A stretch of DNA of 64,000 nucleotides. Source: an uncultured beta proteobacterium. GTDB taxonomy: Bacteria > Pseudomonadota > Gammaproteobacteria > Burkholderiales > SG8-41. Made by a program: the position numbers and the translations under genes. Below are positions 6,808 to 36,453 of the stretch, in pieces. The stretch spans positions 1-64,000 of the forward strand of contig CAISYC010000036.1 in NCBI GenBank assembly GCA_903889565.1, read 5' to 3'. The notes beneath the pieces were generated by a model, which saw only the letters and a program-made list of their open reading frames with translations, did not search any database and had not been told where the DNA came from. Position 1 is the stretch's first letter. The number at the start of each line of letters is the position of its first letter.

Positions 6808-8007
6808 TCAGATTACGCCGGATTTTTTCAGCGCGGCCTGCGCCGCGGCGTCGTAACCCAGCGCCGACAACACCTCTGCATTGTGCTCGCCCAGCTTCGG
6901 CCCCAGCCATGCCGTAGCACCCGGCGAATCCGACAGCTTGGGCACGATGCCCGGCAGCTTGACCGGCTTGCCGTCAGGCAGCGCGTGCTGCTCGATCATG
7001 CCGCGTGCGAGGTACTGCGCGTCCTTGACGATATCCGCCACGTCATAGACCTTGGCCGACGGCACATCGACGGCGTCCAGCGCCGCCAGCACGGCATCGA
7101 GATCGTGCGCCGCCGTCCACGCGCCGATCGCGCCGTCGATCTCCGCGGTGCGCGGCACGCGGCCGGCATTGGTCGCAAGCTGCGCATCGTCGGCCAGATC
7201 GTTACGGTTCATCGCGTTCATGAGACGCTTGAAAATCGCATCGTTGTTGGCGCCGATGATGACGAACCTGCCGTCGCGCGTCGGATAGGTGTTGGACGGC
7301 ACGATGCCGGGCAGCGCATTGCCGGCGCGCTCGCGCACGAAACCGAGCACATCGAATTCGGGCACCAGACTCTCCATCATGCTGAACACCGCCTCGTACA
7401 GCGCGACATCGACCATCTGGCCGCGCCCGCTCGTGTGCCGGTGCTGCAGCGCCATCAGCGCGCCGATCACGCCGTAGAGCGCGGCAATCGAATCGCCGAT
7501 CGAAATGCCCAGCCGCACCGGCGGCCGGTCCGGGTAACCGGTGACATAACGCAGGCCGCCCATTGACTCACCGATCACGCCGAAACCCGGCTTGTCGCGA
7601 TCCGGGCCGGTCTGACCGTAACCGGACAGACGCACCATGATCAGGCGCGGATTGATCGCCGCCAGCGCGTCGTAGCCGAGATTCCATTTTTCGAGCGCGC
7701 CCGGACGAAAGTTTTCGATCACGATATCGGCGCCCGCACAGAGCTTGCGCACGATCGCCTGCCCCTCGGGCACGCGCAGGTTGACGGTCAGCGATTTCTT
7801 GTTGCGCGACTGCACATACCACCACAGCGAGGTGCCCTCGTACATCTTGCGCCACTGCCGCAACTGGTCGCCGCCGTCGGGCGACTCGATCTTGATCACC
7901 TCGGCGCCGAACTCGGCGAACAGGCGGCTGCAGAACGGCGCCGCAATCAACGTGCCGAGCTCGATGACCTTGATGCCTTTTAATGGCGGCGATCTGGTCT
8001 CGCTCAT
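6808..8007 (-). CDS. CaiB/BaiF (class III) CoA-transferase
   Basis: A 399-residue cytosolic enzyme of the family that moves CoA between carboxylic acids through an aspartyl-CoA thioester. It shows the N-terminal motif LKGIKVIELGTLIAAPFCSRLFAEFGAEVIK[IE] split over residues 10-41, NKKSLTVNL, ENFRPGALEKWNLGYDAL and LSGYGQTGP. The catalytic Asp172 lies in ISIGDSIAALYG. The length is normal for the family (about 400 residues). The substrate is not evident; alpha-methylacyl-CoA racemase, formyl-CoA transferase and succinyl-CoA transferase relatives all share these motifs. It is divergent from the Mrr-like gene at 8067 with only 59 bp between them. Confidence 0.88.
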   Translation of the reverse strand: MSETRSPPLKGIKVIELGTLIAAPFCSRLFAEFGAEVIKIESPDGGDQLRQWRKMYEGTSLWWYVQSRNKKSLTVNLRVPEGQAIVRKLCAGADIVIENFRPGALEKWNLGYDALAAINPRLIMVRLSGYGQTGPDRDKPGFGVIGESMGGLRYVTGYPDRPPVRLGISIGDSIAALYGVIGALMALQHRHTSGRGQMVDVALYEAVFSMMESLVPEFDVLGFVRERAGNALPGIVPSNTYPTRDGRFVIIGANNDAIFKRLMNAMNRNDLADDAQLATNAGRVPRTAEIDGAIGAWTAAHDLDAVLAALDAVDVPSAKVYDVADIVKDAQYLARGMIEQHALPDGKPVKLPGIVPKLSDSPGATAWLGPKLGEHNAEVLSALGYDAAAQAALKKSGVI

Positions 8008-8066
8008 ATAATCCGCTCTCTCCTGCGTTTTCCCGCCGGGTTTATCTCCGCTGGGGGCATTTTAAT

Positions 8067-8648
8067 ATGGCCAAAGAAACCCTATTCTCGCTGCTGCTGC
8101 GCGCGCCGTGGTGGATCAGCATACTCTCCGCGATCCCGCTGTTCGGCGCGGTGCAGCTGTTTTTGCCGCCGCTGGTGGCGCTGAGCGCGACCCTGCCCTT
8201 TCTCGGCATCGCCGCCATGGCCGGATGGAAACAACTGCGCGCGCCGACCCCGGCCAATGTCGATGAAATCCTCGGCAAACTGCGCGCGATGTCATGGGAG
8301 AATTTTTCGGCAGTCATCGCCGAAGCGTTCAGGCGCGACGGTTATGCCGTGAGCCCGACCGGCGCCGGCGACGCCGCCGATTTCGAGGCGACCCGCAACA
8401 ATCGTCTTACACTGGTGAGCTGCAAACGCTGGAAAGTCGCTCAGACCGGCATCGGGCCTCTGCGCGATCTGTACGAGGCGAAAAAAACGCGCGACGCGCA
8501 GGACTGCATCTATGTCGCCGCCGGCGGCTTTACCGATAACGCGCACGATTTTGCACTGAAGAATTCGATCCGCCTGCTGTGTGACGGCGAACTCGCGCAA
8601 CTGGCGGCGCGCGTCGAGCGCGCGAACCACCGCTGGAAGCTGTTTTAG
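8067..8648 (+). CDS. Membrane-anchored Mrr-like restriction endonuclease-fold protein
   Basis: A 193-residue protein with two hydrophobic segments (about residues 12-32 and 34-55) followed by a cytoplasmic Mrr_cat-like domain at about 75-180. The nuclease-fold signature is MSWENFSAVIAEAFRRDGY, then GAGDAADFEATR, then LTLVSCKRWKVAQTGI. The usual catalytic pattern of Mrr is D...QxK; here the Gln is replaced by Ser (S-C-K), and the preceding acidic element is D-A-A-D-F-E. A helix and strand pair ending CIYVAAGGFTDNA completes the fold. The role may be DNA-related defence or repair, but membrane anchoring and the altered motif leave catalytic activity open. The last 4 bp overlap the end of the convergent HD gene. 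Confidence 0.75.
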   Translation: MAKETLFSLLLRAPWWISILSAIPLFGAVQLFLPPLVALSATLPFLGIAAMAGWKQLRAPTPANVDEILGKLRAMSWENFSAVIAEAFRRDGYAVSPTGAGDAADFEATRNNRLTLVSCKRWKVAQTGIGPLRDLYEAKKTRDAQDCIYVAAGGFTDNAHDFALKNSIRLLCDGELAQLAARVERANHRWKLF

Positions 8649-9202
8649 CGCGGCTTGCGCGCGTAGGCCTCGTCGAAGGCCGCTTCGAGTTTAGCGTCCG
8701 CACCGCGCACGCCGTCGATCACCGCCTTCGCCCACTCGAAATAGTCCTGCTGCCGCGTCAGGCTCCATGACGCCGGCGGACTGGCCGCGATGTCGCGCAG
8801 ATTGCTGATCTTGTCGGCGAGCTTGACAAGCTTGGCATTGGGACTCGCATGCGCCGCGTGCTCGACCTGCAGACGTTTGCGCTCGGCCTTCAGCAACAGC
8901 TTGTCGTCGGTTACCTCGAGCACGATATCGCAGATCACCGCACCGAACTCCGCTTTCAGTTCCTCAGCCGTGGTTTCGGTGTCTTCGATGGTGTCGTGCA
9001 GCAGCGCCGCGCAGATCACCTCGGGATCGTGGATGCCCGCCTCATTGACCAGAATATTCGCCAGCGCGATCGGGTGATTGATGTAGGGCGAGGCATGCAC
9101 GTCCTTGCGCCGCTGGTCGCGGTGCTTGTGCGCGGCGAACTCAAGCGCGTGCAGGATCAGCGCGAGATCCGCCTTCGGCGATTTCCGGTTGCTGTTTGCC
9201 AT
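8645..9202 (-). CDS. Small HD-domain hydrolase of the SpoT/MESH1 type
   Basis: A 185-residue single-domain metal-dependent phosphohydrolase. The family motifs are present: His25 in AHKHRDQRRKD, His43 in YINHPIALA, the HD pair plus ED in LLHDTIEDT (residues 68-75) and the nucleotide-contact motif VKLADKISNLRD. No synthetase, TGS or ACT domain follows, so it resembles the hydrolase half of SpoT, as in animal MESH1 and bacterial small alarmone hydrolases. Likely substrates are (p)ppGpp or NADPH, by family analogy. It is convergent with the Mrr-like gene (4-bp overlap of stops) and lies 21 bp downstream of the amidase gene on the same strand, so co-transcription with the amidase is possible. Confidence 0.85.
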   Translation of the reverse strand: MANSNRKSPKADLALILHALEFAAHKHRDQRRKDVHASPYINHPIALANILVNEAGIHDPEVICAALLHDTIEDTETTAEELKAEFGAVICDIVLEVTDDKLLLKAERKRLQVEHAAHASPNAKLVKLADKISNLRDIAASPPASWSLTRQQDYFEWAKAVIDGVRGADAKLEAAFDEAYARKPR

Positions 9203-9223
9203 CGTTGACTCGTTACCCTGCCG

Positions 9224-10645
9224 TCAATTACGTATGACCGGATCGATCGGCAGACGTTCCGCATGACCGAGCAATTGTTCGAGGTACGCGCCGTAAGAGA
9301 ATAGTTTCTCTTCCGAGCGCAGCGGTCCCGCCACCTGCAATCCGACCGGCAATCCGCTCGGCGTGAAGCCGCCGGGCAGCGCGAGGATCGGGCAGGCGGT
9401 GATCGACAAGGCACAGGTCAGCGCGAGCCAGCCCATGTAGCCGTCGAGTTTCACGCCGTCGAGTTCCGCGATGTAACGCGTTTCCACCGGAAACGGCGGG
9501 CACATGACGGCCGGCGCGATCAGCAGGTCGTAGGTTTCGAAGAACTTCGCCATGCGGCGGATGATTTCGCCCTGCGCGATCTCGGCGGCCACTACTTCGG
9601 ACAGGCTCAGACTCAGACCGTATTCGGTGTTGCCGATTACCTCGGGCTTGAGCAGCTGCCGGTAATTTTCCAGCAGCGGCGCGATGCGCGCGATATAGAT
9701 GGCACCGCGCAGCACCATGAAATTTTTTACCGCGCCCGACAAATCGGGATGAGTTTCTTCAACGATTACACCATCGCCGGCGATTTTTTTCGCTGCCGCC
9801 TCGACCACCGCGCGCGTGTCACGGTGCACCACCGGCGCGACGCCGAGATCAACGCTGTAAGCAACGCGTTTCGGTTTTGTCGGCCGCGCTGCCGCCGAAC
9901 CATAAACGCCTGACACGGTCGGCTGCGCCAGCGGATCGAGCGGGTGCGCGCCCGCTTCGCATTCGAACATCAGCGCGCAGTCGGCGACGTTGCGTGCCAT
10001 CGGCCCTTCGACCGAGAGCGCAGAAAAAGGCTGTTTGTTGGCGCGCGGCACCATGCCGGGTGACGGCCTTAAACCCACCGTCGAACAATAACTCGACGGT
10101 GTGCGGATGCTGCCACCGAAATCGCCGCCGGTGGCGAGCCACACCTGGCCACTCGCCAGCGCCGCCGCCGCGCCACCCGAGGAGCCGCTGGGCGTCATGC
10201 GCGTGTCCCACGGGTTGCGCGTCACACCGAACACTTCATTGAAGGTATTGCCGCCGGCCGCGAACTCCGGCAGGTTCGACTTGGCCACCACCAGCGCGCC
10301 GTTTTGTTCCAGTCGCTGCACGATGAGGTCGGACGCCGTCGCGATGCGGTCGGCATAGATGCGCGAACCCGAGGTCCAGCGCACGCCCTCGACCTCGGTG
10401 TTGTCCTTGACCGCGATCGGCAGGCCGTAGAGGTAATGCGCCGGCGGCGATTTCGGCGGTGTCTGCATCAGGCGTTTGGCATGATCGCGCGCGCGATCGA
10501 GACACAGCGTCGGCAAGGCATTCAACGCCGGTTCGGTTTCGGCGATGCGCGCCGCCGCGGCATCAATCATTTCCAGCGGCGAGACTTTGCCCTGCTTGAG
10601 CAAAGCCACCGCGGCGGTAGCCGACAGGCGGCAAAGATCATTCAT
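9224..10645 (-). CDS. Amidase-signature family amidase
   Basis: A 473-residue hydrolase of the amidase signature family. The Ser-cisSer-Lys triad is complete: Lys80 in LPIAVKDN, Ser155 in PSGSSGG and nucleophile Ser179 in GGSIRTP. The spacings of 75 and 24 residues match those of fatty acid amide hydrolase. The signature region RNPWD...GSSGGAAAALASG is well preserved. There is no signal peptide, so it acts in the cytoplasm on an unknown carboxamide; relatives include glutamyl-tRNA amidotransferase GatA, but no gatB or gatC is nearby. The gene is divergent from the ThDP enzyme at 10815, leaving a 169-bp shared upstream region. Confidence 0.9.
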   Translation of the reverse strand: MNDLCRLSATAAVALLKQGKVSPLEMIDAAAARIAETEPALNALPTLCLDRARDHAKRLMQTPPKSPPAHYLYGLPIAVKDNTEVEGVRWTSGSRIYADRIATASDLIVQRLEQNGALVVAKSNLPEFAAGGNTFNEVFGVTRNPWDTRMTPSGSSGGAAAALASGQVWLATGGDFGGSIRTPSSYCSTVGLRPSPGMVPRANKQPFSALSVEGPMARNVADCALMFECEAGAHPLDPLAQPTVSGVYGSAAARPTKPKRVAYSVDLGVAPVVHRDTRAVVEAAAKKIAGDGVIVEETHPDLSGAVKNFMVLRGAIYIARIAPLLENYRQLLKPEVIGNTEYGLSLSLSEVVAAEIAQGEIIRRMAKFFETYDLLIAPAVMCPPFPVETRYIAELDGVKLDGYMGWLALTCALSITACPILALPGGFTPSGLPVGLQVAGPLRSEEKLFSYGAYLEQLLGHAERLPIDPVIRN

Positions 10646-10814
10646 GCGAAAAGTTCCCCCGGCGGCTGTAATTATGGTGCGAAGTATAACGCGGTCATGC
10701 GCTGTGCCGCCGCCGCGCTTCTCCGCCGTATTTGTCGCAAGCGGCTACAATATGCCCTTGCGCCGCAGCCGCCGCGGCGCCTTCCAGTCAAACAACAAAC
10801 ACGCGGAAACTTCC

Positions 10815-12503
10815 ATGAAACCTTCTGATACGACATTGATCCGCACCGGCGGGCAATTGCTTGTCGATGCGCTCAAAGTGCATGGCGTCGATATGGCCTT
10901 CGGCGTGCCCGGCGAAAGTTATCTGTCGGTGCTCGACGCGTTTTACGAATCGCAGGACCAGATCAAATTCGTAATCTGCCGTCAGGAAGGCGGTGCGGCC
11001 AATATGGCCGACGCCTACGGCAAACTGACCGGCCGCCCCGGCATCTGCTTCGTCACGCGCGGCCCCGGCGCCACCAACGCATCGATCGGCATCCATACCG
11101 CGTTTCAGGATTCGACGCCGCTGATCCTCTTCATCGGCCAGGTCGACAATGAAGTCGCCGAGCGCGAAGCGTTTCAGGAAATCGATTACCGCCGCATGTA
11201 CGGCCAGATGGCGAAATGGGTGGCGCAGATCGACCGCCCCGAGCGGGTGCCGGAAATGATCAGCCATGCCTTCCATCTCGCAGTGTCGGGTCGCCCCGGC
11301 CCCGTCGTGCTCGCCCTGCCCGAAGACATGCAGACAGCCACCGCCACCGTGCCTGACACAGCGCGCTACCAGCGCGTTGCCGCGCATCCGGGCGTCAAAG
11401 ACATGAACAAACTGCGCGAGATGCTCGCGCAGGCCAAACGCCCCTTTGTCATGCTCGGCGGCGGCGGCTGGAATGCGAAAGCCTGCGAAGACATGCGCGC
11501 CTTCATCGAAACCAACAACCTGCCGACCGCCTGCGCCTATCGCTGTCAGGACCTGCTCGATAACCGCAGCCCGAATTATCTTGGCGACATCGCCGTCGGC
11601 ATGAACCCTGCAATCGAAAAGCGCATCCGCGAATGCGACCTGCTGCTGGCGATCGGCCTCCGGCTCGGCGAGTGGACGACGATCAATTACACCTTGATCA
11701 ATATTCCGCGGCCGCAAATGAAATTCGTGCACGTGCATGCCGGCGCCGAGGAACTGGGCCGCGTCTATCAGGGCGATCTGTTGATCAATTCCGGCATGCC
11801 GGAATTTGCCGCCGCCGCGCGCGCCTTGCCGCCGGTGCAACCGGTGTGGGCCGAGCAGACCAAAGCCGCGCGCGCCGAATTCGACGCGTGGCAACTGCCT
11901 GTCAAAACGCCGGGCACGCTCAACATGAGCGAAGTCATCGTCTTCCTGAAAAAGCGTTTGCCTGAAGGTTCCATCCTGACCAACGGTGCGGGCAACTTCA
12001 CGCTGTGGGCACACCGCTTCTACCAATACACCGGTTTCCGCACCCAGTTGGGGCCGACCAGCGGCGCAATGGGTTACGGCGTGCCGGCCGGTGTGGCGGC
12101 GAAACTCGTGCATCCGGAGCGGCCGGTGATCGCCTTCGCGGGCGACGGCGACTTTATGATGAACGGGCAGGAACTGGCGACCGCCATGCAATACTGCGCG
12201 AAAACCATATTTATCGTCATCAACAACGGCATGTTCGGCACCATCCGCATGCATCAGGAACGCCATTATCCGGGCCGCATCAGCGGCACCGAACTGCACA
12301 ACCCGGATTTCGCCGCACTCGCGCGCGCCTACGGTGCGCACGGCGAGGTGGTGACGAAGACCGAAGAATTCGAAGCCGCGTTCGAGCGCGCATGGAACGC
12401 GAAAACCGCAGCCCTGCTCGAACTGCGGATCGATCCCGATTCGGTGTCGCCGCGCGCGACGCTGTCGGGCATCCGCGCCGAAGCGCTCAAGAACAAAAAA
12501 TGA
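10815..12503 (+). CDS. Thiamine-diphosphate-dependent enzyme (acetolactate synthase-like)
   Basis: A 562-residue enzyme of the acetolactate synthase/oxalyl-CoA decarboxylase superfamily. The N-terminal Pyr domain has the catalytic Glu34 in FGVPGESYL and the motif ARGPGATNASIG in slightly altered form (TRGPGATNASIG). The central domain binds ADP/FAD in relatives. The C-terminal PP domain carries the ThDP-Mg motif GDGDFMMNGQE...INNGMFG. Ending residues do not point to a particular substrate. The ATG at 10815 follows the family N-terminus; longer in-frame extensions upstream have no homology-like content. It overlaps the following ornithine-cyclodeaminase-like gene by 4 bp, so the two act in one pathway, perhaps of keto-acid or amino-acid catabolism. 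No small regulatory IlvH subunit is present, arguing against a biosynthetic role. Confidence 0.87.
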   Translation: MKPSDTTLIRTGGQLLVDALKVHGVDMAFGVPGESYLSVLDAFYESQDQIKFVICRQEGGAANMADAYGKLTGRPGICFVTRGPGATNASIGIHTAFQDSTPLILFIGQVDNEVAEREAFQEIDYRRMYGQMAKWVAQIDRPERVPEMISHAFHLAVSGRPGPVVLALPEDMQTATATVPDTARYQRVAAHPGVKDMNKLREMLAQAKRPFVMLGGGGWNAKACEDMRAFIETNNLPTACAYRCQDLLDNRSPNYLGDIAVGMNPAIEKRIRECDLLLAIGLRLGEWTTINYTLINIPRPQMKFVHVHAGAEELGRVYQGDLLINSGMPEFAAAARALPPVQPVWAEQTKAARAEFDAWQLPVKTPGTLNMSEVIVFLKKRLPEGSILTNGAGNFTLWAHRFYQYTGFRTQLGPTSGAMGYGVPAGVAAKLVHPERPVIAFAGDGDFMMNGQELATAMQYCAKTIFIVINNGMFGTIRMHQERHYPGRISGTELHNPDFAALARAYGAHGEVVTKTEEFEAAFERAWNAKTAALLELRIDPDSVSPRATLSGIRAEALKNKK

Positions 12504-13462
12504 TCCGTTATTTAAAGGAGAAAGACGTCGAGCAGCTGCTGCCAATGTCAGCGGCGGTCGAACTCGTCGAGCAATCGCTGAAGGCGCGCGCCGAAGGCCG
12601 CGCGGTCGACGTGCCTCGCGTGCGCGCGCGCATCCCGGCCGGCACGCTGCACATGATGGAAGCCGCCGCGCCTGAACTTAACATCATCGGCTACAAAGCC
12701 TACTTCTCGGCAACCGGCAAGGGCACCCGCTTTTACGTGCATCTCTTCGACACGGTTTCCGGCAAACCGGTCGCGATCCTCGAAGCAAGCCAGCTCGGCA
12801 TGGTGCGCACCGGTGCGGCCAGCGGCGTCGCTACGCGCCACATGGCGCGCGAAGATGCCGCCGTCGTCGCCACGCTGGGCGCCGGCAAACAGGCGATCGG
12901 TCAGCTCGAAGCGGTGTGCGCGGTGCGCAAAATCCGCGAAGTGCGCGTGTGGAGCCGCAGTGCAGAACGCGCGCAGAAATTTTGCGCCGCGCTCGACAAA
13001 AAGCCCGGCGTCGAAATGAAGGTCATCACTGACGCCGCCGAGGCGGTGCGCGGCGCCGATGTCATCAACGTCATCACCAAGGCAGCTACACCGGTGCTGC
13101 TCGGTGCCTGGCTGGAAGCCGGGCAGCATATCAATGCCGCGGGTTCCAACTCGCTCGCGCGCCGTGAACTTGACGAAGCGGCGGTGCGCCGCGCCAACCG
13201 CATCGCCGTCGATTCGCGCAACACCGCCCGCAACGAGTGCGGCGACCTGCTGCCGCTGACCGAATCCGGCATGCTCGACTGGGATTCGCTGACCGAACTC
13301 GGCGAAATCATCGCCGGCCGCGTGCACGGACGGCGCAGCAAGGACGACATCACGCTCTACGAATCGCACGGCATGGCGATCCAGGATTTGTACACGGCCA
13401 AGTTCGTGCTCGATGCCGCGTTGAAGCAGAATGTCGGCATCGATCTGCCGGTTGGCGACTAG
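12500..13462 (+). CDS. Ornithine cyclodeaminase/mu-crystallin family protein
   Basis: A 320-residue NAD(P)-dependent enzyme. The N-terminal half has the family pattern VEQLLPMSAAVELVEQSL and substrate residues in GYKAYFSATGKGTRFYV. A Rossmann nucleotide-binding motif follows (VATLGAGKQAIGQLEAV), and NAAGSNSLARRELD lies near the C-terminus. Members include ornithine cyclodeaminase, alanine dehydrogenase and ketimine reductases; the substrate cannot be chosen here. The start overlaps the stop of the ThDP enzyme (ATGA), indicating translational coupling. A second, quite different member of the same family is encoded at 31490-32497. Confidence 0.88.
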   Translation: MIRYLKEKDVEQLLPMSAAVELVEQSLKARAEGRAVDVPRVRARIPAGTLHMMEAAAPELNIIGYKAYFSATGKGTRFYVHLFDTVSGKPVAILEASQLGMVRTGAASGVATRHMAREDAAVVATLGAGKQAIGQLEAVCAVRKIREVRVWSRSAERAQKFCAALDKKPGVEMKVITDAAEAVRGADVINVITKAATPVLLGAWLEAGQHINAAGSNSLARRELDEAAVRRANRIAVDSRNTARNECGDLLPLTESGMLDWDSLTELGEIIAGRVHGRRSKDDITLYESHGMAIQDLYTAKFVLDAALKQNVGIDLPVGD

Positions 13463-35021: not shown

Positions 35022-35143
35022 GACTCAGTCTCTCCCTTAAGTGTGTTGTAGGCAGATGGGATTTAAAGCGGAACGCGGAGTCTAGCAAATTGCGACGCGT
35101 GGCGCGAAACACCAGCACCTTCCCCCCTTGCCGGAGAAGGCGG

Positions 35144-35205
35144 GGATGGGGGGGGGGGGAGATTGCGAATTCCCCCACCTCAATCCTCCCCCTCAAGGGG
35201 GAGGG
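35144..35205. repeat. Poly-G tract and G/C-rich hairpin
   Basis: A run of 12 G at 35148-35159 is followed by a hairpin with perfect 8-bp arms (CCTCCCCC at 35185-35192, GGGGGAGG at 35197-35204, loop TCAA). It lies immediately downstream of the selenocysteine-type peroxiredoxin gene on the minus strand, so the stem could end that transcript, although no T-run follows. The homopolymer is a likely slippage or sequencing-error site. Confidence 0.7.
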
Positions 35206-35217
35206 TATTTCATGGAT

Positions 35218-35784
35218 CTACTTCATTTTCGACAGCACCTCGAGCATCTCGTCATTGGGCACGAGACCGCGCGGATCGGTAACGCGCGCGTAAACAACGA
35301 CGCCGTTTTTATCGACGATGAACCACGAACGCTTCGAGCGCAGATACTGCGGAATGCGCGCGGGATCCTGCGCCATCGCCGGATCGTCCTGCAACACGCC
35401 GTAGGCGCGCGAAATCTGCCGGCGCAAGTCGGAGAGCAACGGATAGGTCAAACCAAGCTTTTCGCCCCATGCCTTGTTCGCATCGGGGAAATCGACGCTG
35501 ATGCCCAGGACCTGGGCATTTGCCGCCTCGAACTGGGGAAGATCCAGCTGAAAGGCGAGCGCTTCCTGCGTTCAGGTGCTGGTGAAGGCGCCGATGTAGA
35601 AGAACAGCACGACGTTTTTTTTGCCGGCGAAATCGGCGAGCCTGATTTCCTTGCCGGTGGTGGACGGTGCCGCGAACTCCGGTGCTTTGGCGCCGACCTC
35701 GATCGCCGACGCCGCGGCCGCAAACAGCGCGGCCCCTGCGATCAGCAATCCCGCAGTGAATTGTCTTAATCGTCTTGCGTGCAT
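35218..35784 (-). CDS. Exported peroxiredoxin with in-frame TGA at the peroxidatic Cys (predicted selenoprotein)
   Basis: Read through one in-frame TGA at 35572-35574, this frame gives a 188-residue AhpC/TSA-type peroxiredoxin. Residues 1-27 are a signal peptide (MHARRLRQFTAGLLIAGAALF...ASA). The thioredoxin fold follows: VGAKAPEFAAPSTTGKEIRLADFAG, then VVLFFYIGAFTST-U71-TQEALAF. The TGA falls exactly where TxxC has its peroxidatic Cys. The frame stays open downstream with normal family content (VLGISVDFPDANKAW, YPLLSDLRRQISRAYGV, RSWFIVDKNGVV). No Cys codon occurs anywhere in the protein, so Sec71 would be the only redox residue. A GGGAGGG ribosome binding site precedes the ATG. It lies 47 bp downstream of the UxxC thioredoxin-like gene. 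The alternative, a nonsense mutant, is less likely because the same change hits the active site of its neighbour. Confidence 0.85.
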
Positions 35785-35831
35785 GACAGCCCTCCCGTGG
35801 TTGGTTACGAATGCCCTAAAACCAAAAATGC

Positions 35832-36371
35832 CTAGGAACGCGCCGACAGCGCCTTGATGTAATTGCGGAACGCCGGACTCAGCAAATCGATCGGGCCGTA
35901 ACCGCCGCCGACCACCGCGCCATTACGGTCGATGATGACGGTCCACGGCGTCACGCGCACGCCAAGCGAACGCGCGAGCTTCATCTCCGGATCGAGCGGC
36001 ACCGGCAGCACGTACTTGTGTTCGTTGAGGAAGGGCTTGACCGCCTGCGCGCCCGTGCCATCAAGCGAAATGGCGAGCACCGGGACGCCGCTTTTCTGGT
36101 ATTCCTGCTGTGCCCTCTGCACGGAGGGCATTTCACCGACGCAGATGTCTCACCAGGTTGCCCAGAAGCGGGCAATGATGACCTTGCCTTTGTAGTCGTC
36201 GGACTGCACCGTCGCGCCGGTGGCGGTCGGCATATTGAACGCGGGCAGCGTGATCGCTTTGGCCGGCGCCGTCAGACCCTGCGGCAGCGGCGGCAGATCG
36301 GCGGCGGCGGCGAACGATGCGGCCAATGCCAACCCGATGAAACTCCAGATGCGCGTCTGCGTCGATTTCAT
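35832..36371 (-). CDS. Exported TlpA/thioredoxin-like protein with UxxC active site (predicted selenoprotein)
   Basis: Read through a TGA at 36150-36152, this frame gives a 179-residue protein. A signal peptide (MKSTQTRIWSFIGLALAASFAAAA) is followed by a TlpA/redoxin domain: ITLPAFNMPTATGATVQ, KGKVIIARFWATW-U74-D-I-C77-VGEMPS, LAISLDGTGAQAV and the cis-Pro loop VRVTPWTVIIDRNG. TGA replaces the first Cys of the WCxxC motif, the usual attacking residue; Cys77 is the only Cys left. A perfect stem-loop 20-39 nt after the TGA (annotated separately) fits a bacterial SECIS. The gene is upstream of, and probably co-transcribed with, the peroxiredoxin. Its likely job is to reduce that peroxidase, or other partners, in the periplasm. 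Confidence 0.85.
36111..36130 (-). promoter_or_regulatory. Candidate bacterial SECIS stem-loop
   Basis: On the minus strand the message reads UGCCCUC-CGUGCA-GAGGGCA: a perfect 7-bp stem with a 6-nt apical loop containing GU. The stem starts 20 nt and the loop 27 nt after the UGA at 36152-36150, within the distance range known for SelB-binding SECIS elements of bacteria. The element lies inside the coding sequence, as required in bacteria. Confidence 0.7.
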
Positions 36372-36453
36372 GGTGCCCCCCCGACTTGATGCAGTTTAAT
36401 TCAGCAAGCAACATAGCAGAGTGCGCACACGGTCACAAGCGCGCGGCAAATGT

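Follow-up and report, generated by a model that had tools for sequence, protein, structure and literature searches.

An envelope peroxide pathway of Caulobacter crescentus, formed by ScsB, TlpA and PprX, was reportedly described by Cho et al. in 2012. Without a sequence comparison, the Caulobacter TlpA and PprX are taken here as Cys enzymes. According to PMC5403849, electrons are passed in this route from ScsB to the envelope TlpA and from there to the peroxiredoxin PprX. Other described systems that have to be considered are the Sec-peroxiredoxins with a TxxU motif, such as PrxU of Eubacterium acidaminophilum, the UGC-containing TlpA and Prx-like UxxC selenoproteins, the SAO and Tso operons, in which adjacent selenoprotein genes are thought to share a redox pathway, and AhpE, the 1-Cys peroxiredoxin of Mycobacterium tuberculosis.

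Here we analyzed a stretch of 64,000 nucleotides from an uncultured beta proteobacterium (the window), which contains a peroxiredoxin homologue (Prx) and a TlpA/ResA-like gene (TlpA), each with one in-frame TGA. By analogy, this pair most likely represents a selenium version of the Caulobacter ScsB-TlpA-PprX envelope pathway. Both systems combine an envelope TlpA-like protein with an envelope peroxiredoxin, and a membrane electron source of the DsbD superfamily is likely for both. The window pair differs, however, in the predicted Sec at both nucleophiles, in the side-by-side position of the genes and in the presence of DsbD in the genome, whose single DsbD_TM match lies in a full-length DsbD that combines an N-terminal, a membrane and a thioredoxin domain (no model specific for ScsB was applied).

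The other systems are also only partly similar. With PrxU-type proteins the window Prx shares the PF00578 fold and the U of the peroxidatic TxxU, but it has a signal-peptide-like N terminus, lacks both the resolving Cys and the motif Pro, and reaches only 55.5 bits with the PrxU model, the cut-off being 270. AhpE is likewise of the one-Cys type and is among the best fold matches of Prx, yet it carries Cys instead of Sec, keeps the motif Pro and is only about 30% identical to the window Prx. The window TlpA has a thioredoxin fold with Sec at the first active-site position as do the UGC-type proteins, but its motif is WUxxC with a two-residue spacing, and it scores 56.5 against 300 with WAxxUGC_long. 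Finally, in contrast to the SAO- and Tso-type operons, a pair of Prx and TlpA genes is not mentioned in the portions of PMC13188914 and PMC2398784 that could be consulted.

No description of a Prx/TlpA selenoprotein pair was found in the literature searched, which was accessible in part only and did not cover the work of Haft and Tolstoy (2025), in which a mention would be most expected. The available sections of PMC13188914, PMC2398784 (GOS), PMC1088965 (Sargasso), PMC5029168, PMC4460558 and PMC10298544 do not name it, and a term search of PMC12013277 (deep-Sep) gave no match. We infer that the system has probably been missed when genomes of its uncultured hosts were annotated, because with translation table 11 no minus-strand open reading frame of at least 120 aa spans the pair region and because both proteins stay below the cut-offs of all listed NCBIfam models, in the case of TlpA including the ResA and TlpA models (84.3 versus 170 bits and 64.1 versus 230).

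The gene pair and its reading frames

Both genes are located on the minus strand. The first, at 35832..36371, codes for a putative TlpA/ResA-like thioredoxin-fold selenoprotein of 179 aa with a WUxxC motif, an assignment based on the frame obtained when TGA is read as Sec, on profiles and on fold matches. Its TGA (Sec74, 36150..36152) occupies the first position of the WUDIC active site within WATWUDIC. Following an intergenic region of 47 bp (35785..35831), the second gene at 35218..35784 codes for the peroxiredoxin homologue of 188 aa, which is devoid of Cys and has the predicted Sec at the peroxidatic position (Sec71, 35572..35574, in FTSTUT).

The initial annotation had pointed out two adjacent redox genes, each with a single in-frame TGA at the catalytic Cys position, and this observation was confirmed for codon 71 of Prx and codon 74 of TlpA. 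The frames are otherwise intact as described, each containing exactly one TGA and no further stop, and the common strand and the 47-bp gap were found as well. Good ribosome binding sites had been claimed for both genes; this holds for Prx, which is preceded by a clear Shine-Dalgarno sequence GGGAGGG at 35790-35796, but not for TlpA, where there is only a G run at 36376-36382, weaker than claimed. Export of both proteins had also been proposed and is in line with their signal-peptide-like N termini, comprising approximately residues 1-27 of Prx (35704..35784, minus strand) and residues 1-23 of TlpA (36303..36371, minus strand), both recognized by a heuristic of our own and not by SignalP. Our script assigned a hydrophobic N terminus and an AxA-like site to 53 of the 54 Prx and 47 of the 48 TlpA sequences scored, and a lipobox-like motif to 2 of the 48 TlpA.

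Prx matches PF00578 with 122.9 bits (cut-off 26), and its AlphaFold model has a mean pLDDT of 87.9 with Bcp4 and AhpE as best fold matches, while PHROGs gave only one weak match of unknown function. TlpA is above the cut-offs of both PF00578 and PF08534. Its model (mean pLDDT 91.4) matches a Geobacter thioredoxin-family protein, Bradyrhizobium TlpA and ResA, and the nearest solved structures include the complexes of TlpA with ScoI and with cytochrome oxidase subunit II.

Between 34900 and 36500, no inverted repeats of at least 14 bp within 200 bp were present. Just downstream of the Prx gene, positions 35123-35207 of the window form a stretch of G and C runs including one of 12 G (35148-35159); it gave weak, chance-like microRNA matches on both strands and is perhaps a repeat element.

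Conservation of the TGA codons and the selenocysteine machinery

The genomes of the GTDB family to which the window belongs were searched for Prx orthologues with at least 52% identity. Such orthologues were present in 42 of 74 genomes, in 43 copies which all contain exactly one TGA. A TGA-bearing TlpA (41 copies, one TGA each) occurs in 40 of these 42 genomes, in one of which, G011, Prx and TlpA are on different contigs. Of the loci fetched, 40 were non-duplicates; these contained 39 readable Prx and 38 readable TlpA genes, all with TGA.

A second search covered named genomes, with one genome for each of 84,980 species and two peptide patterns that avoid the Sec column. It yielded 54 loci, all with TGA at the Prx site. 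The TlpA site was TGA in 47 of the 50 readable loci and a Cys codon, TGC or TGT, in the remaining three (L141, L142 and L144); in L119, L122, L140 and L143 it lies past the contig end. The two sets overlap in organisms and their counts are not additive; in all, 124 loci gave 76 distinct Prx sequences.

The fixed TGA at the Prx and TlpA sites across orthologues argues against a chance occurrence, and both codons are retained in independent assemblies. Moreover, the in-frame UGA aligns with a catalytic Cys in both proteins: in the PDB alignment, that of Prx coincides with the peroxidatic residue, a Cys, of both 2ywn and AhpE, and that of 57 Sec-TlpA sequences corresponds to the Cys of 11 linked Cys-TlpA. 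Both genes are under purifying selection beyond the TGA, the median dN/dS being 0.24 after the codon versus 0.28 in the 45 codons before it for Prx, and 0.37 after versus 0.41 before for TlpA. These values, obtained from 517-558 usable pairs out of 600 drawn, are rough because synonymous distances exceed 1.

The window genome, which is 99.69% complete, encodes SelB, tRNA-Sec, SelA and SelD, all above their cut-offs, and its SelD gene contains one in-frame TGA itself. On the minus strand of contig C59, selA is followed by a methyltransferase-domain gene, then by selB, a thioredoxin-reductase-like gene (237 bits, cut-off 343) and finally tRNA-Sec. In this cluster (locus L017, G000:C59:28000-44000, positions 7129-12510) a redox gene thus sits within the Sec machinery. 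Throughout the family, tRNA-Sec was above the cut-off in 67 of 74 genomes, including 41 of the 42 with a Prx orthologue; the exception, G017, is 79% complete, and no Prx orthologue within the 52% identity limit occurs in the six remaining genomes that lack tRNA-Sec. The tRNA-Sec was also above the cut-off in 11 of 12 genomes from other loci, taken from the 54 named loci and picked for spread, the exception being the genome that carries L142.

Taken together, the reading of both TGA codons as selenocysteine is strongly supported from sequence, while the presence of selenium in the proteins is inferred. The initial annotation had read the locus as an exported Sec-Sec pair, which a lack of sel genes or randomly placed stops in orthologues would have refuted. 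This reading is supported, as selA, selB, selD and tRNA-Sec are all present, the TGA position is fixed and the adjacency of the genes is conserved among relatives; the peroxide defence and the reduction of Prx by TlpA that went with it are inferences.

The support from RNA structure differs between the two genes. Alignments of 57 bases from the TGA were made for 46 Prx and 47 TlpA genes. A SECIS-like hairpin of 7 bp with the loop CGUGCA is located 26 nt after the UGA of TlpA (36111..36130, minus strand). Of the alignment cells 98.2% are paired and three pairs are changed on both sides; four of five measures were reached by none of 500 shuffles and the fifth by 17, and RNAalifold gave -11.4 kcal/mol with three compensated pairs. 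In L032, for example, a Ser-to-Ala change on one arm is compensated on the opposite arm, where an Arg codon has changed synonymously. The loop codons are invariant (TCC in 47/47 for Ser, GTG in 48/48 for Val and CAG in 48/48 for Gln), and a test for synonymous constraint over the hairpin gave p = 0.03 (5 versus 21 codons). We also applied a strict bSECIS scan with the constraints of PMC13188914, demanding an unbroken stem and -7.5 kcal/mol or better. The TlpA gene has a bSECIS downstream of the UGA that meets this published model, and 56 of 57 Sec-TlpA passed as opposed to 1 of 11 Cys-TlpA (Fisher p ~4e-10, relatedness ignored); of 760 starts chosen at random within Prx genes, 13% passed. The SECIS of TlpA is hence well supported.

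The Prx hairpin (35524..35557, minus strand) is an irregular stem with an internal bulge, whose loop lies 27 nt after the UGA. Here 89.9% of cells are paired, 223 of 500 shuffles match the count of doubly changed pairs, and one slid control (+1) exceeds the covariation score. RNAalifold gave a weak -4.0 kcal/mol, the hairpin of the window itself has -16.4 kcal/mol, there was no excess of synonymous constraint over the hairpin (p = 0.54), and none of 48 Prx sequences in the window clade, and 4 of 76 overall, passed the strict bSECIS scan. We therefore consider this hairpin only a candidate SECIS of a looser kind, which, although conserved, is a poor match to the bSECIS model. In isolation, the window hairpins have z values of -2.8 (Prx) and -3.3 (TlpA); for the full 60-nt stretches these are only -1.6 and -1.5. 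An Rfam scan of the pair region gave only weak matches far below the gathering scores and no SECIS family.

A putative envelope relay and its alternatives

All 76 distinct Prx sequences have U in the motif and Glu at +3, and 75 have Thr at -3. In 74 of them the mature part contains a single U and is free of Cys; one has an extra Cys and one, probably the fragment L143 with U at its extreme start, shows neither. Prx is thus, as judged from its sequence, a 1-Sec enzyme without a resolving Cys, and an outside reductant would be needed since it has no Cys; its peroxidase activity is inferred. In TlpA, the WU/CxxC motif and the cis-Pro Pro142 are invariant, and 47 of 48 sequences have one U and one Cys.

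A TlpA gene on the same strand within 400 bp accompanies 68 of the 76 Prx genes. This share is limited to the fetched loci, and only the best 20 loci from the search of the phylum of the Rokubacterial genome G466 entered the set. In 56 of the pairs TlpA precedes Prx (48 with Sec and 8 with Cys in TlpA), and in 12 the order is reversed (9 with Sec, 3 with Cys). Sec in TlpA is accordingly not universal, the linked TlpA being a Cys form in 11 of 68. TlpA and Prx are separated by a median of 32 bp (range 11-84, n=47), and a Shine-Dalgarno-like site was recognized in 45 of the 47 cases. Among the eight Prx genes without a linked TlpA, four are located at contig ends, and L159, L164, L167 and L171 are flanked by sequence without a TlpA motif, so that a TlpA neighbour for every Prx is ruled out.

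In 15 flanking regions of 14.9-21 kb, the only widespread element was a TctC-type receptor cluster (14/15, ORFs overlapping the pair excluded). Every other ORF cluster occurred in at most 5 of the 15 regions, and no larger conserved operon was found. Because the ORF list treated TGA as stop, a further gene for a selenoprotein, the third, may have escaped detection. The conserved unit consists of two genes, with variable flanks.

We consider it probable that this unit encodes a peroxide-reducing relay of the envelope, with a selenoprotein as each of its two partners. Electron transfer and peroxidase activity are inferred here and there are no biochemical data. Against such a relay stand the motif Pro missing in all 76 Prx, the four Prx genes without a TlpA neighbour and the weak Prx hairpin. 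If it exists, peroxides in the cell envelope would be countered by a selenium-based system, in an oxidising environment for which easily oxidised selenols seem a non-obvious choice.

A more specific proposal, which we make only tentatively, is a dedicated diselenide relay outside the cytoplasm, in which the Sec of Prx is reduced by that of TlpA via an intermolecular Se-Se bond. The selenolate of Prx would reduce peroxide and become a selenenic acid; Sec74 of TlpA would then attack the oxidised Prx Sec to form a mixed Se-Se bond, as is expected from an N-terminal Sec in TlpA and a Prx without resolving Cys, and Cys77 of TlpA would resolve it. The Se-S bond remaining in TlpA could be reduced by the DsbD of the genome with electrons from the cytoplasm. 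DsbD as the electron source of TlpA is inferred, and it serves many clients. An envelope peroxide pathway of this kind would use selenium at two successive steps. A Sec-Sec contact is, however, not necessary for pairing, as shown by the 11 Cys forms among the linked TlpA. Since Sec-Prx is constant while its natural TlpA partners carry either Sec or Cys, the old question of the reason for using Sec in place of Cys becomes directly testable.

The alternative that survives best, although we think it unlikely, is that both proteins are selenoproteins but TlpA serves another client, such as a copper chaperone or cytochrome maturation as in TlpA/ResA, while Prx receives its electrons from a small thiol or from some other protein, and the two genes are merely co-expressed, e.g. 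under shared oxidative stress. The structures of TlpA with ScoI and with cytochrome oxidase subunit II among its nearest neighbours would fit such a role, as would a reference title in PMC4460558 naming TlpA as the reductant of ScoI, and the four Prx genes without TlpA point in the same direction. On the other hand, the pairing recurs in both gene orders, a Prx without resolving Cys requires a partner, and no copper or cytochrome gene was conserved nearby in the 15 regions, whose ORFs were clustered and not individually annotated.

A role of the Prx homologue as an envelope selenium-based sensor or thiol oxidase, which is reset by TlpA and does not scavenge peroxide, appears less plausible still. 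It is suggested by the departure from the PxxxTxxC/U motif, in which the canonical Pro at -7 is replaced by Ile (64), Val (10) or Thr (2), given that the motif is reported in PMC13188914 to be highly conserved in canonical Prx. The nearly invariant Thr at -3, the invariant Glu at +3, a confident Prx fold and Arg152, which is at least 90% conserved and corresponds to an Arg in both 2ywn and AhpE, nevertheless speak against it. An active-site Arg is part of the catalytic center of peroxiredoxins in general. Lastly, the idea that the TGA codons are sequencing errors or that the genes are decaying can practically be discarded, as it found no support beyond sources that are nearly all MAGs and is contradicted by the TGA of Prx in 54/54 loci from separate assemblies, the purifying selection past the codon and the Sec machinery of the genome.

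Distribution and further relatives

In a sample of the order, Prx was present in 15 of 399 genomes belonging to two families (E <=1e-35), and in a sample of the phylum in 1 of 398, the genome of the window itself (E <=1e-40). For most of these genomes only 8 first-look candidates were scored and some Prx may have been missed. Prx was found in 4 of 5 genomes of the phylum of G462 (Entotheonella), and a Prx relative in 61 of 95 genomes of the phylum of G466 (E <=1e-30). Among the Prx relatives listed for the latter, most have one TGA and some have none, and clear Prx relatives without TGA therefore exist in this phylum. Sec-Prx relatives, including L172-L175, are thus frequent in two other phyla and rare in the sample of the window's own phylum; transfer between phyla is possible.

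The titles of the 54 named loci are marked as MAG in 53 cases and refer mostly to Betaproteobacteria or Burkholderiales, the others being Entotheonella, Tectomicrobia, Rokubacteria and Deltaproteobacteria. Such titles are weak evidence, because Bordetella parapertussis, Chitinophaga pinensis and Rhizobiaceae do not fit their placement in the tree.

In the Methylomirabilota, members of the same families form pairs in which TlpA has Cys, or pairs of the opposite gene order with Sec in both proteins, and the four Prx genes without a TlpA neighbour are also found there. The reversed Sec/Sec pairs are located in the phylum of G466. In the tree, a single clade (SH-aLRT 97) holds the forward Sec/Sec pairs and four Prx without an observed partner; the other arrangements fall outside it. 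The two gene orders and the occurrence of both Sec and Cys partners within the same families point to evolutionary rearrangement of the module. There is no proof of separate origins, since the fewest changes required on the Prx tree, a quick one with poorly resolved deep forks, are one for Sec/Cys in TlpA and two for gene order.

Several genomes contain additional copies or relatives. Two copies of the Sec/Sec pair are present in G044, on contigs G044:C27 and G044:C114. The genome of the window has a second, distant Prx match with 35% identity and one TGA (G000:C5:74268-74606), and similar distant matches with one TGA occur in many genomes of the family. Finally, in a Rokubacterial MAG a further TGA-bearing Prx-like gene with the motif YCYDWGGIUTPEL is located directly 3' of the Sec-Prx gene (L142:3497-3964, corresponding to L153:2042-2503 of the same genome).
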